Both the position numbers and the translations under genes were made by a program. Of a DNA stretch of 64,000 bases, positions 3,001-61,042 are shown piece by piece. This DNA comes from Salinicola endophyticus (lineage in GTDB: Bacteria; Pseudomonadota; Gammaproteobacteria; Pseudomonadales; Halomonadaceae): positions 2,604,001-2,668,000 of the forward strand of contig NZ_CP159578.1 in assembly GCF_040536835.1 (NCBI RefSeq). The letters run 5' to 3'. The notes beneath the pieces were generated by a model that worked only from the letters and a program-made list of their open reading frames with translations, had not been told where the DNA came from and did not search any database. Numbering within the stretch: position 1 is the first letter of the stretch; the number at the start of each line of letters is the position of its first letter.

Positions 3001-3706
3001 GAATCTGCGGCGCCAGCACTTCATAGAAGAATGCCTGATCGGCCTTCTCGCCGGCCCGCGGCTTGATCGCGTTGAAGATCTGGCTCTTGTCGGCACCGCC
3101 CTCCTTCTGGAACGCCGCCAGCTGGGCCAGCTCGCGCCGCGAGATGTGCACCCCGACCGCCTCCAGCCACTCTTCGCGGTTGGTGGCACGGGTGACCCCA
3201 TGGGCACGCATCAGGCTCTGGAAATCGGCATTGGCGTAGAGCGCCAGCTTGCCATCGCGGGTGATATGGTGAACCGGCACGTCGGAGAGCTGACCCGGAT
3301 AGTGGTAGAACACCAGCCCGCTGCCGTCGCTGTAGCCGTACATGCCGAAGACGAAGGTCTCGCCGGAGACCTCCTCGCCGGCCACCGCGAGCATGTCGTC
3401 CTGCTGGGTACTGCCCTGCTGGGCGCGGAACTCGACCCGCAGATGGGTCCAGCTGCGCGCTTCACCGGCGACCTTGGAGGGCGAGCACTTGCGCCGCGTG
3501 CGCGTGAGCAGCTGGCGGTCGCGCGAGAGCATGCCGATCAGCGCCTCGGCCATGGTGGTCTTGCCGAAACCGTTCTCCATGCTGATCGCGCTCGACTGCC
3601 CGCGCAGATCGATCAGCAGGTGGCGCATCTTGGCTTCCCAAGGCGAGGCGATATCACCATGCTTGTTGAGCAGGTTGGCGATCTCGATGCGGTGAATGAC
3701 GCTCAT
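1..3706 (-). CDS. mksB: SMC/MukB-like ATPase of an MksBEF/Wadjet-type condensin (3' end outside window)
   Basis: The frame is open from the ATG at 3706 to the window edge, giving 1235 codons without a stop, so the protein is truncated only by the window. The N-terminal head carries a P-loop of the form NGFGKTT at residues 45-51. From about residue 270 onward the sequence is almost entirely charged, Glu/Arg/Gln/Leu-rich coiled coil. The ABC signature and Walker B of the C-terminal head are not reached, so the full protein should be well over 1300 residues, closer to MukB than to a compact JetC. The start overlaps the stop of the preceding gene by 4 nt (ATGA), so translation is coupled. In such systems the SMC ATPase with its kleisin entraps or extrudes DNA, for chromosome organisation or, in Wadjet systems, plasmid restriction. 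The family is inferred from the P-loop, coiled coil and gene order. Choosing between MukB, MksB and JetC needs the missing end. Confidence 0.8.
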   Translation of the reverse strand, partial: MSVIHRIEIANLLNKHGDIASPWEAKMRHLLIDLRGQSSAISMENGFGKTTMAEALIGMLSRDRQLLTRTRRKCSPSKVAGEARSWTHLRVEFRAQQGSTQQDDMLAVAGEEVSGETFVFGMYGYSDGSGLVFYHYPGQLSDVPVHHITRDGKLALYANADFQSLMRAHGVTRATNREEWLEAVGVHISRRELAQLAAFQKEGGADKSQIFNAIKPRAGEKADQAFFYEVLAPQILSGATRGETDEEEELIEDVILNSGTRITELRHRLAEAESDQQRADDKVERLATLNEEGESLLESRRQLAALDASLLEAERLLGGQALAPLPGLPGQRDAGETLEAGVAEAATGLAWAIGDTERPRVSTWLLAKLSRQAERNVRLALSERGARVDTHRRLVHLPQASWIVARDIGHVAFDQARAWLADSHAFADDAARYRALGVLDEAAEAFEGLDGNRFREEVIADREYRRSLRLDAEQLDESLERLEQEREQLESRQRDFIDNQSVYTQALAEGLFSEAELETPEASREAAREALEQARREHAEHLGRMGELKQPAQWYAAFEREHPDATPEEVLALKQERQETLEAELGEWDAQAANLNGQRERAREALQARREQRQRLEGELAPLAAGRQAWQAFNEQWPAHSAIGFWDARRTALSEHEQILADARRELADIDARLERLAPLEDAAERYRHWHADAAPVHLRDTLYRQSRECQDRLHELSQQRSELERLVQAQTDFDDCSEQSPEVWLKDAKARYPRLLRERDGLDGAIEARERYLQSLSGDPLARLAAESDAQRLLEAREIDFRPLHEVLAAVEADTQVRRDWLAQAAGQLFAPVVEGEDAAREAAQCLIDGGCGVPVLEGERLRATLARGELPLGAIQGVETLAVKAALDPAYLTALRDETQQRLEIDRQRLAALSAEIERLDPHGERFALALRAAEAVRREAAVELAALEERQAHLLAEQEALTPRLGEAALKAIDDYQRFLEEGGEAALSAARQARVQVEQRLAEHAPERERLAREFETHGEGWLAAERFASAGGVERLEEIDASLAAVAEESAELEETLAELTLESEALDARRDSHREQLRQLFADGERERLRRLAAFVAEGGPDFMQQAEQREAALQAALTAANRRADFDFERIRAFLDVRDEKGGNRTLERDIGRLKQTLKETRDKRRHNGREQEALESRLTRHQQALNITDQLAVAWLEVLRQLPEGWAERALADAGAGWPQDHAEAER

Positions 3707-4686
3707 TGACGCGGCTCCTCGTCTTCCTGGCCACCGGGGGCCTTGTCTTCCGACCCGGCGGCTGCGGCCTCGTCTTCCTCGGCCACGGGCTCGTCCGCTG
3801 CCATCGCGTTCGCCTCGCTCTCTTCAGCGACACCGGGCTGGGCTTCAGCGGAATCGGGCTGGACTTCAGCGGCGCTCGACTGAGCGTCTGCCTCGGTGTC
3901 AGGCGTCTCTGCCGTCGCCAGCAAGCGCTCGCCGTCGCTACCCTCGGCGGCGGTCAGTTCGATCAGATGGGTCAGGTGGTGCACGCCGATCTGCTCGGCC
4001 TCGAGTGCCCCCAGCAGGGTCTGCTGCCACACGTCCTCGTCGCCGGACTCGCGCACCAGGTCGAGATGCCCGGCGCGTACCAGCAGATCGATGAACGCCT
4101 TGACCCGGCGCGGGATATCCTCGCCGCGCTCGTCGAGCAGCACCCGGCTGTTCTCCGGGGCGCTCTCGCCCAGCCCGCGCAGGATCTCGAGCTGATCGCG
4201 CACCAGCTCGACCAGCTCACGGGTGACGAAAGTCGCCTCCTGATAGCGGCTGACATCCGAGAGCGCGCGGTTGAGTCGGGTGTAGATCAGGGTGTGCAGC
4301 AGCAGCCACAGCTGCAGATACCACAGCGCCAGCTCGGCGCGGCTCTCCTGGCGCAGCTTGAGCGCCTCGAACACCGCATCGCGGGTATAGAGCGGCGGCT
4401 GCTCCAGCTCCGGGTCCGGCAGCAGCGCGAAGAAGCGCGAGCCCGGCGCGATACCGGGATAGTCACCGGCCTCGAACACCTTGAGGCGCATGCCCTGGCC
4501 GGCAAGAAAGTCGCGCAGTGCCTCGCGCTCGCTCTCCTGGGCGTCATCGATCAGCGCGCAGACGTCACGCTCGGAGAGCTGACCCTCGCGCGCAGCGCGC
4601 CGCTTGCGACCGCCGCTGGGGACGCGTTCGGCGGTGCGATAGCGCAGCAGATAGGCGACCACCTCGCCCATTTCCATCATGTTCAT
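3703..4686 (-). CDS. mksE: MksE/JetB-like condensin accessory subunit with acidic C-terminal tail
   Basis: 327 residues. The start ATG at 4686 is 2 nt past the stop of the upstream kleisin-like gene, and the stop overlaps the SMC gene by 4 nt, so this is the middle gene of a tight three-gene operon. Residues about 1-245 are mixed helical and fit the winged-helix KITE-type subunits that bridge kleisin and SMC heads (MukE, MksE, JetB). I recognise this by position and size rather than by a decisive motif. Residues about 250-327 form a low-complexity Ala/Glu/Asp/Ser/Pro tail with strong negative charge. This is unusual for the family and may be an acidic extension suited to a salt-loving host. 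A hydrophobic helix around residues 119-134 (LALWYLQLWLLL) looks like a buried packing helix, not a membrane span. Confidence 0.7.
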   Translation of the reverse strand: MNMMEMGEVVAYLLRYRTAERVPSGGRKRRAAREGQLSERDVCALIDDAQESEREALRDFLAGQGMRLKVFEAGDYPGIAPGSRFFALLPDPELEQPPLYTRDAVFEALKLRQESRAELALWYLQLWLLLHTLIYTRLNRALSDVSRYQEATFVTRELVELVRDQLEILRGLGESAPENSRVLLDERGEDIPRRVKAFIDLLVRAGHLDLVRESGDEDVWQQTLLGALEAEQIGVHHLTHLIELTAAEGSDGERLLATAETPDTEADAQSSAAEVQPDSAEAQPGVAEESEANAMAADEPVAEEDEAAAAGSEDKAPGGQEDEEPRQ

Positions 4687-4688
4687 AG

Positions 4689-6101
4689 TCAAACGTCCTG
4701 GTCTGGCATCGTCGTCTCGCGTACGCGCAGCGACGGTGTGACGGCGCCTTCGATCCGGCGCCCGTCGGGCAATTCGATGGCGAAGGGCGTGTCGTCGATC
4801 CCCACGCTGAGATGATCGTCGAGCAGTTGGGTATCGACGAAGGTGTTGAGCAGCTGGGGCAGACAGTCGAGCGCTTCGTCGTCGAAGCGGTGCCACCCCT
4901 CACGCAGCGCTTCAGGCAGCGACAACGGCGCCTGGCGCAGACGCTGGCGCAGTGCCGGGCCACGCGCCTTGAGATAGCGCGCCAGCAGCGGATCGGCCCC
5001 GGGCCGGTCGCCGGCCTCGTCGAACACCAGCGCGGCACCGCTGCGCTCGGCGCGGCGGGTCTCCACCAGCGGCAGCAGCGTCTCCACCCGGGGCATCGCC
5101 ACCTGCGTACCCAGCGGCATCATGCGCGCCACCACCGCGTCCTGCAGACGCTGCGGCGGTGGCGCCAGCAGCAGACGCTGGGCCAGCCCGGCGAAGTCGA
5201 TCACGCCCATCGACTGGATGCGCCCCTCGGCGATGTCGGAGAGCAGCTCGGAGAGGCGCCGCGAGAGGTTCTCGATGGCGTTGAGCACGCGGCCGATCGC
5301 CCCCGAGAGCATGCGCAGGTCCCACTCCGTCTCCTGCTGCTCGGCCCAGTGGGCGAAGTGCTCGGCGACGCCAGGAGCGGCGAGCTGGGCGCGGGCACTC
5401 AGCAGGGTGTTCTGGATCGTGCTCAGGGCGTTGTGGTAGTGGCGCTCGTTCTCCTCCAGCGCCGCCAGTTTGCCCTCGTGGGTGGGGTTCTCGCGCACCC
5501 GGCGCAGCTCCTGAGTCAGCGCTCGGATCGCCATCAGGATCTGCTGGGTGATATCGGGCACCCGGGCATAGTCACCCCGTGACAGCGCCGCCACCACCTT
5601 GGCCGCGTCATACTCGGAATAGAGCAGATCCTCGACCTGACTGGCCAGGGTCACCGCCTGGCGCCCGCTCGGGGTGAGGCGCACCTGGCCGGTCTGTCCC
5701 TGCTTCTCGATCAGCGCGGTGCGCTTGGTACTGCGCACGCTGCGCTCGCCCGGGGCCAGTTCGTCGCCGGCGGGGCCGGCCTGCCATTCGCGATAGTGGA
5801 TCTCGCTGGGGGTGGCGAGCAGATTGATCACGAAACTCAGATCGTCCGCCGGCAGCGACGGGTACTCGCCACGTAGATGCGCCAGGCAGCGGCGCTGGGT
5901 GACGAAAGCGCTGTTGGTGGCGAAATCCACCTCGAGCAGGTAGTCGAGCAGCAGGCAGCCCAGGTCGAGCCAGTAGCCGTCACGCAGGCCGCGCCGCTGC
6001 TCCTGGGTGACCTGAACGAAGGGCGAACCCGGCTCGTGGGCACTGTCATGCAGATCGAGCAGCCGCGTCGTCGCGACCAGCAGCTTGTTCCAGGCGGTCA
6101 T
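4689..6101 (-). CDS. mksF: MksF/JetA-like kleisin subunit of the condensin
   Basis: 470 residues from the ATG at 6101, chosen because GGAG lies 6 nt upstream; an in-frame start 27 nt earlier lacks this. The N-terminal third looks like a winged-helix dimerisation domain ending in LTPSGRQAV, a typical wing-strand phrase of MukF/MksF-like proteins. It is followed by helical segments (about residues 160-300) and a C-terminal region rich in charged helices. This layout matches kleisins: an N-terminal winged helix, a helical neck-binding segment, and a C-terminal cap-binding region. It is the first gene of the operon mksF-mksE-mksB, the same order as jetA-jetB-jetC. A jetD/mksG-type nuclease gene, if present, would lie to the left of the window. 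The call rests on architecture and synteny, so it could equally be labelled JetA. Confidence 0.72.
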   Translation of the reverse strand: MTAWNKLLVATTRLLDLHDSAHEPGSPFVQVTQEQRRGLRDGYWLDLGCLLLDYLLEVDFATNSAFVTQRRCLAHLRGEYPSLPADDLSFVINLLATPSEIHYREWQAGPAGDELAPGERSVRSTKRTALIEKQGQTGQVRLTPSGRQAVTLASQVEDLLYSEYDAAKVVAALSRGDYARVPDITQQILMAIRALTQELRRVRENPTHEGKLAALEENERHYHNALSTIQNTLLSARAQLAAPGVAEHFAHWAEQQETEWDLRMLSGAIGRVLNAIENLSRRLSELLSDIAEGRIQSMGVIDFAGLAQRLLLAPPPQRLQDAVVARMMPLGTQVAMPRVETLLPLVETRRAERSGAALVFDEAGDRPGADPLLARYLKARGPALRQRLRQAPLSLPEALREGWHRFDDEALDCLPQLLNTFVDTQLLDDHLSVGIDDTPFAIELPDGRRIEGAVTPSLRVRETTMPDQDV

Positions 6102-6748
6102 GTCGACTCCAGACAGGAAAAACCGCACCCGCCCATGGCGCTGCCGCGGGTGCTCGTGAAGCGCCGCATTATGCCAAGGTTACGGTTTCAGGTCATGACG
6201 ATCCGGGTAACGGAGCGCTTACCGACTCGATGCGCGCCGCCAGTTCGCCGACCAGCCCAGAGCGTCTCGGGACGCGTAGAGGGAGGATCTTGGATGTCTT
6301 CTCGATGGTGCCAACGGCTGAAAGTCATATCGCTAACACCCAAGCACTACGCTGATGCAGCGTTCGAGATGCAGGCAGGGGCGGCCTGGATCTCAACACG
6401 AATCCTGGGTGTAGCCGCGGCTTGCTTATGCAGCTTGGTGTCCATGAACCTGCTCCCGAATAAAGTGCTATAAAAATTCTCTGCTGCCGGTAGAAAATAA
6501 TCCCTATAGACAACTTGAGCATACAGAGCACCAAATCCAGCCAATCCTGGAGAAACATGCCGTAGCAGTAGAGGTAACTATCAGTAAAGCCGACAACACT
6601 GCGGGTTACTTCTTGCAGACGAACCGTCCCAGGGCCACATAAAAAAACAGACAACCCATTAAAACCTGTCAAACCTACAGCCACTTTTACCTCACGACTG
6701 ACTTTAATGCACTTGGAGGTTATCTAAAACAGACTTGAGGAATTAGCC
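6102..6748. other. AT-rich intergenic stretch between condensin operon and Gly-rich gene cluster
   Basis: No convincing full-length gene. From about 6300 the base composition is visibly richer in A/T than the GC-rich genes on either side, which suggests acquired DNA. On the minus strand a GTG at 6684, preceded by GAGG, opens a 119-codon frame to 6325. Its hydrophobic, cysteine-containing product matches nothing I know and I do not call it a gene. The only recognisable piece is a transposase-like N-terminus at 6347-6445, listed separately. A promoter for the Gly-rich cluster should lie near the right end, but I see no confident -35/-10 pair. Confidence 0.6.
6347..6445 (-). pseudogene. Possible remnant of a transposase N-terminus
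   Basis: An ATG at 6445 with an upstream GGAG starts a 32-codon frame beginning MDTKLHKQAAATPRIRVEIQ. This resembles the N-terminal helix-turn-helix entry of integrase-type (IS481-like) transposases, where a HK.A..TP.IR.EIQ phrase is common. After about 22 residues the similarity stops and the frame ends. No catalytic DDE domain follows. I read it as a relic of an insertion element in an AT-rich accessory stretch. The match is from memory of the family and short, so confidence is low. Confidence 0.3.
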
Positions 6749-7210
6749 ATAAAAATTCGCTTCAAGTGCCGCTTGCCCGCTGTCATTCTCTCTGTCGGAT
6801 TTGCGGGTTTTGCCCACGCCGGCATCTCCATTAGTGAAGGATCTCTCTCAACCCCAGACTACAGTGGACCGGGTATTACTCAGGCACCTGGGCATCTTCT
6901 GGTGGCTTCCAGTGATGGCGGTGATGGCGGTGATGGCGGTGATGGCGGTGATGGCGGTGATGGCGGTGATGGCGGTGATGGCGGTGATGGTGGAGATGGC
7001 TCACCCGGTGGAGATGGCGGTGACGGTGGCGACGGTAATGGCTCACCCGGCGGAGCCGGTGGTGATGGTGCAGATGGCGGCGACGGTGGTGATGGCTCCG
7101 CGGGTGGCGACGGCAACAGCGATGGAGGCACCGGCAATGGCAGTGGCAATGGTTCCGGCAACGGTAACGGCACCGGTAACGGCAACGGCAACGGCAACGG
7201 GATTGGCTAA
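6749..7210 (+). CDS. Exported Gly/Asp-repeat protein 1 (GGD triplet repeats, GN-rich tail)
   Basis: I do not recognise a named family. With a start at the ATA at 6749 the product is 153 residues: a good signal peptide (basic n-region KIRFKCR, hydrophobic core, AHA cleavage site), a short linker, then nine consecutive GGD-type triplets. Broken GGD/GSPGG repeats follow, and a tail of GNGSGNG/GNGNG repeats. The ATA has TGAGG 8 nt upstream. The next usable codon, TTG at 6773, has no ribosome-binding site and would delete the basic n-region, so ATA (or a miscalled ATG) is preferred. The mature part is nearly all Gly, Asp, Asn and Ser with no hydrophobic core. It would suit a polyglycine-II or extended fold, or a hydrated acidic polymer. 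It leads a cluster of four similar genes. Function unknown. Confidence 0.6.
   Translation: MKIRFKCRLPAVILSVGFAGFAHAGISISEGSLSTPDYSGPGITQAPGHLLVASSDGGDGGDGGDGGDGGDGGDGGDGGDGGDGSPGGDGGDGGDGNGSPGGAGGDGADGGDGGDGSAGGDGNSDGGTGNGSGNGSGNGNGTGNGNGNGNGIG
6914..6985 (+). repeat. Eight perfect tandem copies of the 9-mer GATGGCGGT
   Basis: Eight exact copies of GATGGCGGT lie head to tail inside the first Gly-rich gene, each encoding Asp-Gly-Gly, followed by degenerate copies (GATGGTGGA and similar). Because the unit is 9 bp, gain or loss of copies by slippage would change protein length by three residues and leave the frame intact. Confidence 0.95.
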
Positions 7211-7243
7211 TCCTATCTTTTGCCTCGGAAAAGGAGATAGCAG

Positions 7244-7531
7244 ATGAAGCCTTCGAAGACGCTCATGATTGCTCTGACCACCTTCATTATTGGCACTTCG
7301 GGTATTGCCTTGGCCAGCGACCCAATCAGTCCCGACTGTGCTTCGCTTGATGGAGCCGCGGGACAGGATGGAGCCAAAGGCACTGCCGACTGCCCCAACG
7401 GGGGCGATGGTGGCAACGGCAAGATAGGCCAGAATGGCGGCAAGGGTGGCGACGGTGGCAACGGCACCAACGGTGGAGATGGCGGCGACGGTGGCAACGG
7501 TGCACCTGGAGCTGATGGCAAGGATGGGTAA
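7244..7531 (+). CDS. Exported Gly-rich repeat protein 2 with a Cys pair
   Basis: 95 residues, ATG at 7244 preceded by AAAAGGAGA, a strong ribosome-binding site. The N-terminus is a clear signal peptide (basic MKPSK, hydrophobic core, cleavage near ALA-SDP). The mature protein begins with a short segment containing two cysteines about 18 residues apart (CASLDG...TADC), able to form a disulfide after export. It then carries GGDGGNG, GGKGGDGGNG and GGDGGDGGNG repeats and ends GAPGADGKDG, which looks like short collagen-type Gly-X-Y triplets. It lies 33 nt after the first Gly-rich gene and 3 nt before the third, so one operon is likely. No family recognised and no enzymatic motif present. Confidence 0.7.
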   Translation: MKPSKTLMIALTTFIIGTSGIALASDPISPDCASLDGAAGQDGAKGTADCPNGGDGGNGKIGQNGGKGGDGGNGTNGGDGGDGGNGAPGADGKDG

Positions 7532-7534
7532 ATC

Positions 7535-7906
7535 ATGAGCACGCCAAAGCCCCCCTGGAAAGAATTGCTGATCATTCCCCTGGTGGTTTTCCCTCTGGTA
7601 TCTCCTGTCTCGCAAGCAGGCTCGGCTCTAGACAGTACCTATACCCTGGCCGCCAATGGTGGTGATAGTGGTGACGGGGGAACAGGTACTGCAGGTGGTG
7701 ATGGTGGCGATGCCGGATCCGGAAACCATTCGAACGGTGGCGATGGAGGCCATGGGGGAAACAGCGGGGCCTCTGGGACCGGTAGCTCAGGTGGCGATGC
7801 CGGCCATGGTGCAGACGGTGGTGACGGAGGCGACGGTGGATCAGGAGACGGATCCAGTGGGGGCGATGGTGGTGACGCCGGAAGCGGCAGTAGCTCGACC
7901 GGATAA
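7535..7906 (+). CDS. Exported Gly/Asp/Ser-rich repeat protein 3
   Basis: 123 residues. The start codon is 3 nt after the stop of the preceding gene, implying translational coupling. The N-terminus (MSTPKPPWKELL, then a hydrophobic stretch and a cleavage site near VSQA-GSA) looks like a signal peptide. The rest is GGDGGDAGSG, GGDGGHGG, GGDAGHGADGGDGGDGG and serine-containing variants, ending in GSGSSSTG. The motif GGDGGDAG followed by S/P and G also occurs in the fourth gene, linking the two as closer paralogues. Codons for Gly include many GGT and GGA, unlike the GGC-dominated neighbours, in keeping with a foreign or recently evolved origin. Function unknown. Confidence 0.68.
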   Translation: MSTPKPPWKELLIIPLVVFPLVSPVSQAGSALDSTYTLAANGGDSGDGGTGTAGGDGGDAGSGNHSNGGDGGHGGNSGASGTGSSGGDAGHGADGGDGGDGGSGDGSSGGDGGDAGSGSSSTG

Positions 7907-7930
7907 CAGTGATCGCGGGAGGCGGCAGTC

Positions 7931-8311
7931 ATGGCTCTGAGGATGTCCAGAAAGCAACTCTTGTCAGCTGGTCTGCTGGCCGTGTCATTGCATGTTACGC
8001 CCGTTCTCTTGGCGGTGGCCGTGGGTATCGATGGAGTTCAGGCCCAAGCCAGCGACTGTGGCGATGGAGGCAATGCCAGCGGTGAAGGCAATGGCGGCAA
8101 TGGTGGCGACGCCGGTGCCGGCAGCAACGGCGACGGAGGGGATGGCGGCAACGGCGGCAGCCAGGGAGGCAACGGAGGCAATGGCGGTAACGGCAGTGGC
8201 TCCGGTAACGGAGGTGACGGCGGTGATGCTGGTCCGGGAGGGGAAGGTGGCAAGGGTGGCGCCGGCGGCCCCGATGGTGGAAAGGACGGGAGTGATGGCC
8301 GCGACGGGTAA
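7931..8311 (+). CDS. Exported Gly-rich repeat protein 4
   Basis: 126 residues from ATG 7931 (GGGAGG upstream); an internal ATG at 7943 is an alternative. A long signal peptide ends near VQAQA-SDCG, leaving one cysteine close to the mature N-terminus. The body is GGNGG, GGDGG, GSGNGG and GGDGGDAGPGG repeats, with a more charged end containing GGKGGAGG and KDGSDGRDG. It is the last of four tandem genes with separate signal peptides but the same repeat grammar, 24 nt after the third. No membrane anchor, LPXTG, RTX nonapeptide or enzymatic motif is visible. What it does is not known. A structural, surface-coating, ice- or ion-binding role would be guesswork. Confidence 0.68.
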   Translation: MALRMSRKQLLSAGLLAVSLHVTPVLLAVAVGIDGVQAQASDCGDGGNASGEGNGGNGGDAGAGSNGDGGDGGNGGSQGGNGGNGGNGSGSGNGGDGGDAGPGGEGGKGGAGGPDGGKDGSDGRDG

Positions 8312-8378
8312 TACGTCGCATAAAAACACTTAATAGTTGTCGCCCCCTCTTCGTCAACTGAACATTCGAGCCCCTACA

Positions 8379-8485
8379 CCTAGCCGAGGTAGTAGGCGCA
8401 AACCCATTGGCCGTCAGGATCGCCAGCGACGAATCTGCGGCCGAAGTCCGCCAGCCGCTCTCAGGTGACTCTGCCTAGCCGAGGT
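8379..8485. repeat. 12-bp direct repeat CCTAGCCGAGGT, two copies 95 bp apart
   Basis: CCTAGCCGAGGT occurs at 8379-8390 and 8474-8485. On the minus strand each copy reads as a protein end of the type xx-Leu-Gly-stop (YYLG and HHLG). Before the first is an open stretch translating to a plausible C-terminus (ADFGRRFVAGDPDGQWVCAY). This may be debris of a decayed minus-strand gene between the Gly-rich cluster and the GST gene. Confidence 0.45.
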
Positions 8486-8547
8486 GATGGACGCTATGCC
8501 GCCAGGCCTGTCGGGAGCGGGGCCACTGAGGCAGTGGCCCGGCATCT

Positions 8548-9183
8548 CTACGGGGCTGTCGGATCAGACTCGGCCATCAACTCGGCAATTCTCGCCTCGG
8601 CCCGCTTTTTGGCGGGACGCTCCAGCAACGGGGCGACGTAGGCGTCGAATTCCGGCCGACGCGGAATCGCGTCGAACGTCATCCCGAAGTTGAGCAACGA
8701 AACCAGATAGACATCCGCCGCACTGAAGCGCTCACCCGCGACAAAGGAGCGTCCGGCCAACCAGCATGCCAGTGCGTCATAGGTCATCTCGAACGACCCG
8801 TAGCCAGACTGTCGCTGCATCTCGGGGGTATCGGCTTTCCAGCCGGCGGCATGGTCGGACATGGCCGGTTCAGCACAGGCAGCGGTGAAGAAAAACCAGC
8901 GGTAATAGTCGCCACGCGCAGGCGGTATCGGCGCCAGGCCAGCCTCGGGGAAGGCGTCAGCCAGATAAGCGCAGATCGCCGCCGCTTCGGTGACCACGAC
9001 ACTGCCGTGACGAATGGCGGGCACCTTGCCCATAGGATTGATGGCCAGGTAATCGGGCGCTTTCATGGGGGCACCGAAACTCAGCACTCGGGTCTCGTAA
9101 GGCTGGCCAACTTCCTCCAGCATCCATTGCACCGTATTACCGCGTGACTGGGGGTTGGTGTAGAAGATCAATTCCCGGCTCAT
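8548..9183 (-). CDS. Glutathione S-transferase family protein
   Basis: 211 residues. The N-terminal thioredoxin-like half starts ELIFYTNPQSRGNTVQWMLEE, with Ser13/Arg14 at the place of the glutathione-activating residue. The cis-proline motif is in MGKVPAI, and TEAAAICAYL corresponds to the usual E-S-xx-I glutathione-binding turn, though the Ser is replaced by Ala. The C-terminal half is the all-helical GST domain with SAADVYLVSLL, the N-capping/hydrophobic staple region (S/T-xx-D). It probably conjugates or reduces an electrophile with glutathione in the cytoplasm; the substrate cannot be read from sequence. It lies 36 nt downstream of a WYL-type regulator on the same strand and is probably co-expressed with it. 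Confidence 0.9.
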   Translation of the reverse strand: MSRELIFYTNPQSRGNTVQWMLEEVGQPYETRVLSFGAPMKAPDYLAINPMGKVPAIRHGSVVVTEAAAICAYLADAFPEAGLAPIPPARGDYYRWFFFTAACAEPAMSDHAAGWKADTPEMQRQSGYGSFEMTYDALACWLAGRSFVAGERFSAADVYLVSLLNFGMTFDAIPRRPEFDAYVAPLLERPAKKRAEARIAELMAESDPTAP

Positions 9184-9219
9184 GGTGTTCTCCTGGCGTC
9201 TGGTGGGTGTCAGGAGACT

Positions 9220-9918
9220 CTAACGCTCACCACTGTCAGTTTTTGTCAGTAGGGTTTTGCGCCACTCCTTCATCATCTGGTGACGGCGCCTGGGAGTTCT
9301 CTCGGGCAATATGCTGGCGCCGAGGATGCGATCGACGCGGAAGTGACGATAGGCATTACGCAGCTCACACCAGGCGGTCAGCACCCGGATCGAATCGAAG
9401 AAACCCACGTTCACCGGCCACACGATCCGTTCTGTCCTCGCCCCTGTCTGGTCGGTGTAATCCAGCGCCAGCTTGCGCTCCTCGCTCAGGGCCTGACGAA
9501 TCAGGGGCAGGTCTTCCCGTGTCGTGGGCTCCCAGCTGGGGACGATAACCAGGGCATCGTCCTCGAAGCGATAGCGCAATGCCGCGGGCAGAATCGCTTC
9601 GATCTTGGCCATGGCCTCCCGCGCCGCCTGCCCCATGGGCCCGTCGGTGCGCTCTCCGGCCCATTTGAGGCCCAGCGCCAGCGCTTCGATCTCCTCAGCC
9701 GAGAACATCAGCGGCGGTAGCAGGAAGCCAGGATTGAGCACATAGCCCACGCCCGCTTCACCGTCGATCGGCGCGCCCTGCTGGCGCAGACTGGCGATAT
9801 CTCGATAGAGCGTACGCACGCTGACACCGGTCGCCTCGGCCAGCACGCTAGCGCTCACCGGGCGACGGTGACGACGCAATACCTGCAACAGGTCGAACAG
9901 ACGTTCGGAACGGGACAT
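9220..9918 (-). CDS. YafY-type HTH/WYL-domain transcriptional regulator
   Basis: 232 residues from ATG 9918. A TTG 21 nt upstream is possible but the ATG fits the conserved MSRSERLFDLL opening. Residues 1-60 are a winged HTH (ASVLAEATGVSVRTLYRDIASL), followed by a GYVL wing. The middle and C-terminal part is the WYL ligand-sensing domain, with the region IVWPVNVGFFDSIRVLTAWCELRNAYRHFRVDRI containing the usual Trp/Tyr/Arg positions. Such proteins sense a small molecule or nucleic acid and usually control neighbouring genes. The adjacent GST gene is the obvious target. No operator can be assigned. Confidence 0.9.
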   Translation of the reverse strand: MSRSERLFDLLQVLRRHRRPVSASVLAEATGVSVRTLYRDIASLRQQGAPIDGEAGVGYVLNPGFLLPPLMFSAEEIEALALGLKWAGERTDGPMGQAAREAMAKIEAILPAALRYRFEDDALVIVPSWEPTTREDLPLIRQALSEERKLALDYTDQTGARTERIVWPVNVGFFDSIRVLTAWCELRNAYRHFRVDRILGASILPERTPRRRHQMMKEWRKTLLTKTDSGER

Positions 9919-9947
9919 ATCATCATCCAGGATGAACAAGCGCGCCG

Positions 9948-11633
9948 TCAGCCGCGCAGCTTCTTCACCGCCGCCTCGATGGAGCGTTCATAGCGCACCA
10001 GCGGTGGCCGCACGCCGTTGGCGAACAGCACCCGGCGCATGTCACTGCGGGTCCCGGTCAGGGCGATGCGGATACCGGCACGGCGCGAGGCACCGAGTAC
10101 GCCCTCCAGGGTACGGGCGGCGCTGACATCGATGAAGGGCACCTGGCTGAAATCGAGAATCAGCCCGCGGTGGCGATCGGATACCCGCGAAAGGATCGAC
10201 TCGATCGAGGTGGCGGCGCCGAAGAACCAGGCGCCGGAGAGCCGATAGACCACCAGTTCGGGGTCGGCGGGCGATAGCCCCGAGTCATGATAATCCAGGC
10301 TCGCGTCCGCCACGTCCTCCGGCACCCAGGGCATCTGCGCCGCCCCCACGCTGTGCGACATGCGCTGGATGAACAGCAGCGCACCCAGCAGCGTGCCGGC
10401 CAGAATCCCCTCGATCAGATCGCGAAAGACCGTTAATGACAGAGTGATCAGCAGCACCGCGGCATCCCCCCGCGACGCTCGCAGCAGGCTGGCGAAAGCG
10501 TGCTTCTCGACCATGTTCCAGGCCACCACCGCCAGCACCCCGGCCAGGCTCGCCAGCGGCACGTAGTTCAGCAGCGGCGCTGCCACCAGAATGAACAGCA
10601 GCAGCAACAGCGCATGCAGCATGCCGGCGAGCGGGCTCACGGCACCGGCGCGCACGTTGGTGGCCGTGCGCGCGATGGTGCCGGTGACACAGATACCGCC
10701 GAACAGCGCCGAGGCGACGTTGGCCGCGCCCTGCGCCACCAGCTCGCAGTTGGCGCGATGACGCCGCCCGCTCATGCCATCCGCCACCACCGCCGAGAGC
10801 AGCGACTCGATCGCCCCCAGCAGCGTGAAGGCCACGGCGCTGGGCAGAATCTCGATCACCTGATGCCAGGAGAATGCCGGCAGCGACGGCATCGGCAGCG
10901 TTTGCGGAATCCCGCCGAAGGCGGAGCCGATGGTCGCCACCGGTAGATCCAGCAGCGTCGCCGCCCCCGCCGACACCGCTATCGCCACCAGCATACCCGG
11001 CCAGCGCGGTCGCCAGCGTTTGATCAGGACGATGATAGCGATGGTCGCCAGCGCCAGTACCAGAGTGATCGGGCTGGCCGTGGGCAGCGCCTGCCAGATC
11101 GCCGGCAGCTTCTCCAGCAGCGGGCCGGGCTCCTGCCCGGCGAAGGTCAGCCCCAGCAGCGGCTTGAGCTGGCTGGCGAAGATGATCAGCGCGATCCCGG
11201 CAGTGAAACCGACCGTGACCGGATAGGGGATCAGGCGAATCAGACTGCCCAGCCGCAGCCAGCCGATCATCGCCAGCATCACCCCGGACAGCAGCGTGGC
11301 CAGCAGCAGCCCGGCCATGCCGTGGGCCTGTACGGTCGCCGCCACCAGCACGATGAACGCGCCCGCCGGCCCGCCGATCTGAAAGCGGCTGCCGCCCAGC
11401 AGCGAGACCATGAAACCACCGACGATCGAGGTGTAGAGCCCCTGGGCAGGAGAGGCGCCGGAAGCCATGGCGATGGCCATCGACAGCGGCAGTGCGACGA
11501 CGGCCACGGTCAGCCCGGCAACCAGATCGGCGCGCAGCTTGGCGAGCCCATACCCTTCGCGCAGGACGGTCACCAGCTTGGGGGTGAAGAGCGCCGCGAA
11601 ACCCGGCGACCTGGCGGTGCGGACATGCTTCAT
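9948..11633 (-). CDS. SulP/SLC26 family inorganic anion transporter with STAS domain
   Basis: 561 residues. After a short cytoplasmic N-terminus the protein has about 10-12 membrane segments. The SulP signature region is ALPLSMAIAMASGASPAQGLYTSI, followed by IGGPAGAFIVLV, the anion-binding re-entrant motif. The last roughly 120 residues are a cytoplasmic STAS domain with LILDFSQVPFIDVSAARTLEG, the loop equivalent to the anti-sigma-antagonist phosphosite. It should sit in the inner membrane and carry sulfate, bicarbonate or a dicarboxylate; family members differ and the sequence does not decide. No carbonic anhydrase or sulfate assimilation gene is adjacent to hint at substrate. Confidence 0.93.
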   Translation of the reverse strand: MKHVRTARSPGFAALFTPKLVTVLREGYGLAKLRADLVAGLTVAVVALPLSMAIAMASGASPAQGLYTSIVGGFMVSLLGGSRFQIGGPAGAFIVLVAATVQAHGMAGLLLATLLSGVMLAMIGWLRLGSLIRLIPYPVTVGFTAGIALIIFASQLKPLLGLTFAGQEPGPLLEKLPAIWQALPTASPITLVLALATIAIIVLIKRWRPRWPGMLVAIAVSAGAATLLDLPVATIGSAFGGIPQTLPMPSLPAFSWHQVIEILPSAVAFTLLGAIESLLSAVVADGMSGRRHRANCELVAQGAANVASALFGGICVTGTIARTATNVRAGAVSPLAGMLHALLLLLFILVAAPLLNYVPLASLAGVLAVVAWNMVEKHAFASLLRASRGDAAVLLITLSLTVFRDLIEGILAGTLLGALLFIQRMSHSVGAAQMPWVPEDVADASLDYHDSGLSPADPELVVYRLSGAWFFGAATSIESILSRVSDRHRGLILDFSQVPFIDVSAARTLEGVLGASRRAGIRIALTGTRSDMRRVLFANGVRPPLVRYERSIEAAVKKLRG

Positions 11634-12067: not shown

Positions 12068-12199
12068 AATTGGAATTTACTACACCACCTTCCGGCCGAC
12101 ACCTTACGACCCCGACGCTCCCCGACGAGCGTGTCTGGCACTACGTTCCAGGCGCTGGCTGCTAGGTTAGAAGGTGTACATGCATTCGGGAGTCCCATC

Positions 12200-59948: not shown

Positions 59949-61042
59949 GCGTCACCGTCCGGTGCCAACTGATGGGCCTGCGAAACCGCCTCGCGCGAGA
60001 GCATGAACTCGACGTCGCTGCTCTGTTCGTTCTCCATCAGCGCCCGCGCCATGTCACGCGCCGGCACGCCGTCGAACATCACATGGTGCAGCCCCTGGGC
60101 CAGCGGCATGTAGATGCCCTCCTCACGCGCCTTGGCACACACCAGCTTGACCGTATTGACGCCCTCGGCCACCTGGCCCAGGGCCGCGATCGCGTCGTCG
60201 AGGGTGGCGCCCTCGCCCAGCGCATAGCCGACGCGGTAATTGCGCGAGAGCTTGGACGAGCAGGTGACGATCAGATCGCCGACGCCGGAAAGCCCGAGAA
60301 AGGTCATGGGATTGGCACCCAGAGCCACCGCGAAGCGGCTCATCTCGGCCAACGCGCGGGTCATCAGCATGGCGCGGGTGTTCTCGCCCATGCCCAGCGC
60401 CGCCGCCATGCCCGCGGCGATGGCATAGATGTTCTTGAGCGAGCCGCCCAGCTCGGCGCCGTAGCGGTCGTTGCCGGCATAGACACGGAAGTAGCCGCAG
60501 CCCAGCGCGGCCTGGACATAGGCCCGGGTGACCGCATCGTCGCTGGCGATCACCGTCGCCGTGAGCTGCTTCTGGGCGATCTCCGCGGCCAGGTTGGGCC
60601 CCGAAAGCACGCCGATGTGCGACGAGCCGGTCGCCTCCTCGATCAACTGGCTCATCAGTTTGAAGCCTTCGGCCTGGATCCCCTTGGTGGTGGTCACCAG
60701 GATCTGCTCCGGGCGCAGGTGCTCGCGCGCCTGCTCGAGCACGCTGCGAAACGCCTTGGAGGGGATGGCGATGAATACCACCATGGCCTCGGCCACGGTG
60801 GCGGCCAGATCAGTGGAGGCCACCACCGCCGGGTTGATCGGGTAGTCGGGCAGATAGCGGCCGTTGCGGTGCTCGTGATTGATCTGGTCGACCAGCGCCG
60901 CATCGCGCAGCCACTGGCGTACCGTGGCGCCATTGTCGGCAGCGATGCTGGCGATGGCGGTACCGAAACTGCCGCCGCCGAGCACGGCGACCCGCATGGG
61001 CTCCGAAGAGCGGGAAGCTGACTGCGAGGGGGATTCTGACAT
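59945..61042 (-). CDS. gpsA: Glycerol-3-phosphate dehydrogenase [NAD(P)+]
   Basis: 365 residues from ATG 61042; a second ATG at 60997 ([16 protein letters not shown]) would give the more usual N-terminus without the Ser-rich leader. NAD motif GGGSFGTA, catalytic Lys in [12 protein letters not shown] and the [20 protein letters not shown] substrate region are present. It makes sn-glycerol-3-phosphate for phospholipids. Followed by sixA with overlap. Confidence 0.96.

Follow-up and report, generated by a model that had tools for sequence, protein, structure and literature searches.

A four-gene operon for exported glycine-rich proteins shared by Salinicola endophyticus, Kushneria aurantia and plasmids of Pantoea

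The operon and its products

The genes discussed here are four adjacent open reading frames (ORFs) at positions 6749-8311, on the plus strand, of a 64,000-nucleotide (nt) stretch of the Salinicola endophyticus genome (contig NZ_CP159578.1), referred to below as the window. They are separated by gaps of 33, 3 and 24 nt, and their lengths and spacings are those given in a preliminary description made from the sequence alone, which had proposed an operon of exported glycine/aspartate-repeat proteins belonging to no recognised family. Gene 1 (6749..7210; 153 amino acids, aa) begins with ATA and has a signal-like start, a GGD array and a tail rich in Gly and Asn (7127..7200), and its counterparts carry a similar tail. 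Gene 2 (7244..7531; 95 aa) contains a Cys pair (C32/C50) and its product is predicted to form a glycine-rich polyproline II bundle. Gene 3 (7535..7906; 123 aa) is without Cys and has a Gly/Asp/Ser domain. Conservation is highest in gene 4 (7931..8311; 126 aa), which carries a single Cys downstream of its signal. The Cys pair, the single Cys and the tail had all been described correctly. Within gene 1, a near-perfect tandem array of a 9-nt unit (6912..7000; 9.9 copies, 96% matches) alters the length of the protein while keeping its frame; the K. aurantia protein is 18 residues shorter there.

The proposal that each product combines a signal-like start with a domain rich in Gly, Asp and Asn is borne out by the charge and hydropathy of the starts. 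The first ten residues are net positive in all four proteins (+1 to +4), a hydrophobic stretch is present in each (best 11-residue Kyte-Doolittle mean 2.2-3.0), and an AxA site is found in genes 1, 2 and 4, with SQA in its place in gene 3. All four proteins contain GGX repeats, and their mature parts have a Gly share of 0.48-0.54 and no aromatic residues. A Gly is followed by another at position i+3 with a frequency of 0.85 in gene 2, compared with 0.83 in the snow flea antifreeze protein (AFP) and 0.64-0.73 in genes 1, 3 and 4. The absence of a named family was likewise upheld, as neither Pfam (searched to E 1) nor PADLOC matched any of the four, and NCBIfam and PHROGs gave weak matches for gene 2 alone, far below cut-off. 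Our literature search found no paper describing these genes, and the word "glycine" is absent from the paper on LPP-1 (PMC3505739).

At the K. aurantia position aligned with the ATA start of gene 1 (6749) there is an ATG, and the only later common in-frame start in the window, TTG at 6773, would drop the charged part of the signal. A block upstream of gene 1 and reaching to its start codon (TAATGCACTTG..TCTAAAACA..CTTGAGG; 6705..6751, plus strand) is conserved in the alignment with K. aurantia and is a candidate leader or promoter; it was not recognisable 5' of the Pantoea operons, and a scan of 6300-8700 gave neither a sigma-70-type promoter nor a terminator. The ATG and the conserved upstream block in K. 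aurantia imply either that ATA is used as a start in the window or that the window allele is weakened.

Recurrence of the four genes in other bacteria

A scan of genome contigs identified all four genes in Kushneria aurantia (locus L029), in the same order and with gaps of 33, 4 and 24 nt; genes 1-4 of the window are 70, 66, 67 and 79% identical to their counterparts there. A distant DNA search of plasmids, in which six of 91 records were opened, led to Pantoea loci where the four genes are labelled hypothetical, and the complete order of genes 1 to 4 is present in seven of these (L041-L045, L050 and L052); in the five loci measured, the overlap between genes 2 and 3 is 4 or 23 nt. The genes are thus not orphans and recur together, as had been anticipated, and the arrangement is not confined to this organism, its gene order being shared by Pantoea. 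Eleven further plasmid or genome matches, which were left unopened, may be unrelated Gly-rich genes.

When the L044 operon was used as the query, 36 of 72,556 plasmid records matched, all of them from Pantoea; in 29 the match covered 80% or more of the query. The L043 operon matched 17 records, likewise confined to Pantoea, with such coverage in five, and its match in the biocontrol strain Pantoea vagans C9-1 was a partial one. The records are largely plant-derived, and a single plasmid (NZ_CP134734.1) carries two divergent copies of the operon. A tblastn search of plasmids with protein P0006 gave nothing useful. The Pantoea operon had no match among 50,697 phage records and the only tail-fibre match of gene 2 is weak (PHROGs, E 0.088); a phage origin was therefore rejected. 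A gene 1-like piece is present in one of 5,426 Escherichia coli genomes, viz. strain A28 (echidna), as a lone ORF flanked by insertion sequences (L049, 5868-6245).

Several Pantoea records show variations on this layout. In P. ananatis PA13 (L051, 4194-4838), a single 234-aa ORF joins a gene 2-like part, in which the Cys pair is lacking, to a gene 3-like part; no other record matches it, and it may be a natural fusion or a single-record oddity. P. alfalfae (L043, 4981-5313) has a fifth exported Gly-rich ORF directly 3' of gene 4, and two more such ORFs lie on the minus strand about 1.5 kilobases (kb) past the operon in L041 (10917-11402 and 11486-11968).

Among 146 related genomes, relatives of gene 2 were found in eight others, six of which have the same Cys-pair motif; the other two (genomes G144 and G009), which sit in long frames (680 and 556 aa), were discounted as compositional, and so was a match in G401. 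In Kushneria, presumably the genus of genome G074, gene 2 is present in seven of ten genomes: K. aurantia has all four genes and the other six have gene 2 alone in the 10 kb read, one of these lone copies being frameshifted. A search with gene 3 among the 146 relatives matched the window's own genome only, a count that understates its spread because K. aurantia apparently lies outside those 146, and a gene 4 profile searched against 369 genomes of the class likewise matched its own genome only. A second gene 3 match in the window's own genome (E 0.026; window 60875-61000) was rejected, as no Gly-rich exported gene was present in the frame read.

Correspondence of the individual genes with Pantoea

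The firmness with which each gene can be paired with its Pantoea counterpart differs among the four. The pairing of gene 4 is, by alignment, unmistakable: 59 columns are invariant in six sequences, the Gly domain aligns with Pantoea without gaps, and the match lies 11-19 standard deviations above shuffles preserving the Gly units, none of 200 of which reach it. Gene 3 finds its best match in Pantoea gene 3 (hhalign score 101.5 vs. 44.8-72.8 for the others), which was equalled by 0 to 3 of 200 shuffles. The pairing of gene 2 is founded on the Cys motif and not on the repeat domain, which scores slightly better with Pantoea gene 3 in hhalign, and that of gene 1 on gene order and the Gly-Asn tail. 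For Pantoea gene 1 the best score is with gene 1 (60.2 vs. 33.0-45.1); conversely, gene 1 of the window scores best with Pantoea gene 3 (84.2), and two of its four Pantoea comparisons fail to beat shuffles. An origin of the four genes by duplication, which the preliminary description had favoured, is conjectural.

Selection on the reading frames and concealment by annotation

In each of the four genes, differences between the window and K. aurantia fall predominantly on third codon positions. The ratio of nonsynonymous to synonymous substitution rates (dN/dS) in this comparison is 0.14, 0.18, 0.14 and 0.14 for genes 1-4 in frame and 1.25-1.96 in the other two frames. Of 16 in-frame comparisons in all, 14 give values of 0.04-0.25 (dS being beyond computation in two), and 29 of 32 off-frame comparisons give 0.74-3.97 (dS being zero in three). 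In most of the window-K. aurantia and L041-L044 comparisons dS exceeds 1, which makes the ratios there rough but leaves the contrast between frames unaffected. The low in-frame and high off-frame values therefore indicate that the glycine frames are genes under purifying selection.

In the plasmid gene tables for the seven four-gene Pantoea loci, genes 3 and 4 are called out of frame in all seven and gene 1 in five, while gene 2 is never miscalled; in P. ananatis PA13 the annotated frames are correct. The wrong-frame calls arise because DNA coding for GGD and GGN leaves the other frames open too, and the out-of-frame annotation consequently conceals the genes from protein databases. Whatever the function of these proteins, gene callers can thus conceal a conserved operon.

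The gene 2 family and its predicted fold

Gene 2 belongs to a family, newly delimited in this analysis, whose members, from Kushneria, Xenorhabdus, Pantoea and records labelled Salmonella, share a Cys-pair motif after the signal-like start (CxxxNG..G..G..G....C..GG.GG.G). In a 21-row alignment, which took 10 of 27 database proteins, there are invariant columns of both Cys and Gly. A pattern test found the Cys pair in 12 of the 27; P0008 and P0009, which have it, were left out of the alignment, and the 15 others lack the pair or were unused. A separate branch is formed by P0017-P0021 and P0027, which derive from metagenomes; these are likewise small, exported and of GGX type, and their C-terminus bears an additional conserved region (CRQ... 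SWEYPA-like).

Structure prediction gave a confident model for gene 2, in which the product is predicted to be an antiparallel glycine-rich polyproline II bundle of the springtail type. Comparison of this model with the PDB by Foldseek matched springtail antifreeze proteins only, none significantly, and a fold search of BFVD gave nothing below E 1.5. Sequence searches of the PDB led to nothing of use; the one match of a wide gene 2 profile, to Obg (1lnz), was insignificant (E 5.3). On the strength of the predicted model, the polyglycine-II or polyproline-II bundle that had been put forward is a fair model for gene 2. Structure prediction for gene 4 gave no usable model.

Probable horizontal acquisition

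The operon lies in a block of about 3.7 kb (6218..9943) that close relatives lack at this position and that also contains, both on the minus strand, a glutathione S-transferase-like gene (8548..9183; at E 1e-40 in this genome only, out of 18 in the genus) and a WYL-type regulator (9220..9939; PADLOC WYL model, E 4.7e-64). In three close relatives the flanks are 90-97% identical, and 55 or 156 bases stand in place of window positions 6218-9943 (or 6212-9954); a fourth relative, which is more distant, lacks the operon too, and alignment with it resumes only at 12187. Within the genus, gene 2 is found in this genome only (1/18) and the left neighbour of the block is kept in all 18. The G+C content is 60.5% in the block, compared with 70.0 and 67.0% on its sides, and an integrase gene lies 5' of the operon in K. 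aurantia. The ends of the block that were compared have no terminal repeats of at least 9 bases, and no tRNA was found near four related loci. The block was probably acquired horizontally and is probably mobile; a gain is likelier than a loss in all of the relatives, though the edges are without marking repeats.

Comparison with known glycine-rich proteins

Like gene 2, the springtail antifreeze proteins (snow flea 2pne/3bog and GrAFP 7jjv) have Gly at every third residue and a Cys near the start of the domain; they differ in that the outward residues of gene 2 are rich in Asp and Asn and that the bacterial genes form a four-gene operon with export signals. No homology of gene 2 to these proteins was found by sequence comparison. 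Their fold, with Gly inward and a flat Ala/Ser/Thr/Val face, is described as "unique to Collembola" in the available text of PMC10235112. Among non-Gly residues, the Ala/Ser/Thr/Val share is 0.30, 0.12 and 0.28 in genes 1, 2 and 4, compared with 0.48 in the snow flea protein, and the Asp plus Asn share is 0.49-0.63, compared with 0.16. For gene 3, the Ala/Ser/Thr/Val share is 0.57 and 0.50 in the two halophiles and 0.29-0.33 in Pantoea; judged by composition alone, gene 2 lacks an antifreeze-type face and gene 3 (0.57) would suit one. Halophile gene 3 departs from the pattern of outward Asp and Asn and could have a different surface. The Asp share is 0.53-0.85 in the two halophiles (8 genes) and 0.10-0.56 in five Pantoea loci (20 genes), groups which are not independent samples; the higher halophile share is what would be expected if these positions face the solvent and are adapted to salt.

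Other Gly-rich polyproline II bundles, bacterial ones included, are described in the accessible portions of PMC8409303 and PMC13243192 (viz. Obg, acetophenone carboxylase and PE_PGRS), where segments of this kind are also suggested to be able to associate. The tips of phage adhesins (gp38) and the N-terminal domain of Obg are such bundles too, according to the same part of PMC8409303, but they are parts of larger proteins with other roles. Mycobacterial PE_PGRS domains resemble the four products in being GGX-rich and are modelled as polyproline II sails (PMC13243192, in the part available); the four products are far smaller, have a Sec-type start, occur in Gram-negative hosts and contain no PE domain (Pfam, up to E 1), and a PE_PGRS assignment was rejected. 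They share with RTX proteins a Gly/Asp-rich composition and some GGxGxD words, but the GGxGxDxUx nonapeptide does not occur in any of the four and their start is of the Sec type, not that of type I secretion, so that RTX was rejected as well; the possibility of their being fragments of a known RTX or PGRS protein, raised at the outset, is thereby answered in the negative. A collagen-like assignment was also rejected, as there is no uninterrupted run of at least six G-X-Y units in which X and Y are other than Gly, and the NCBIfam Scl score of gene 2 is 14.7 bits against a cut-off of 325. Xenorhabdus entries named "collagen-like surface protein" have the Cys-pair motif, GGX domain and signal-like start of gene 2; their label derives from composition, and we know of no function for them.

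Proposed function and alternative explanations

The explanation that we favour, tentatively and with somewhat less than even confidence, is that the operon specifies four co-exported bundle-type proteins that form a hydrated coat. The four small products would be made together and exported via the general (Sec) route. In the predicted gene 2 bundle, glycines would be packed inside with Asp, Asn and Lys outside, and the Cys pair may form a disulfide; the other three products would likewise form such bundles or supply edge strands for them. The four subunits could join edge to edge through backbone hydrogen bonds left open by the bundles, giving an acidic, highly hydrated coat or matrix on or around the cell, which would aid survival where surfaces are salty or dry out, as on leaves. 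A Kushneria reportedly has a mangrove-leaf origin, to judge from the title of a reference, and K. aurantia itself is presumably a mangrove-leaf isolate. A hint of envelope chemistry, although not a constant one, is the DsbA/ScsC-like gene that adjoins the operon on its 3' side in two small Pantoea plasmids (L043, 5386-6186, and L045, 7080-7877).

The products might instead be a disordered acidic sponge for ions and water, serving without a fixed fold as an osmotic or cation-binding buffer in the periplasm or capsule. The glycine-rich composition without aromatics, the higher Asp share in halophiles and the lack of a structure model for gene 4 agree with this; yet the gene 4 pattern is kept position by position and gap-free between orders, its match is lost when the Gly units are shuffled (0/200), where a freely varying composition would not need order, and gene 2 has columns of invariant Cys and Gly, which makes a sponge unlikely. 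More improbable is a role in structuring ice or water, in which the bundles, like those of springtails, bind ice or limit its growth and the four variants serve different faces. In its favour, ice nucleation is known in Pantoea, the predicted fold matches were limited to springtail antifreeze proteins, halophile gene 3 exceeds the snow flea protein in Ala/Ser/Thr/Val, and PMC3918373 (in the part available) reports that a Halomonas sp. and Enterobacter agglomerans inhibit ice recrystallisation. Against this stand the low Ala/Ser/Thr/Val and high Asp plus Asn of genes 1, 2 and 4, the share of only 0.29-0.33 in Pantoea gene 3, and the habitat of the halophiles, which to our knowledge exerts no freezing pressure. 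The earlier suggestion of ice-associated material is accordingly disfavoured for genes 1, 2 and 4, and retains some footing for halophile gene 3, which is as rich in these residues as the snow flea protein.

The mobile block, the plasmid location and the plant- and insect-associated carriers would suit a secreted set of small peptides directed against competitors or plant and insect hosts, but the loci listed have no recurrent immunity, dedicated exporter or processing genes beside the operon, the mature parts have no hydrophobic or cationic segment, and PADLOC and PHROGs assign no family; we regard this as quite unlikely. The view of the ORFs as functionless low-complexity passengers could draw on their presence in a single genome out of 18 in the genus, the ATA start of gene 1, the gene 1-like piece that is all E. 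coli A28 keeps among its insertion sequences, and the frameshifted Kushneria gene 2. It is barely credible, being already contradicted by the selection test (in-frame dN/dS of 0.04-0.25 in 14 of 16 comparisons) and by the retention of gene order between orders.

The coat of co-exported bundles can be extended to a bolder proposal, which we consider rather doubtful, that the operon is a mobile four-component kit of exported polyproline II bundles that co-assembles extracellularly, and that the springtail fold has a bacterial counterpart, by convergence or through a bacterial source. If the favoured reading is right, a multi-component bacterial system would join a rare fold class known from single proteins or domains, natural sequences would be available to separate such bundles from disordered Gly-rich chains, and there would be a genetic handle on the role of exported Gly-rich bundles.

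Neighbouring genes and a similar gene cluster

Two genes upstream of the operon, at 4689-6128 and 3703-4896, had been labelled condensin; at the thresholds applied, Pfam and NCBIfam matched neither, and the name of the first is provisional. In an unrelated small genome (L026; G249:C22, 4194-10027), small exported Gly-rich genes (three, then one) are interleaved with two DUF3857-transglutaminase genes, whose products are possible cross-linking partners of the Gly-rich proteins there; this domain is absent from the genome of the window. The third of these Gly-rich genes has a relative in three of the 14 genomes of that family.
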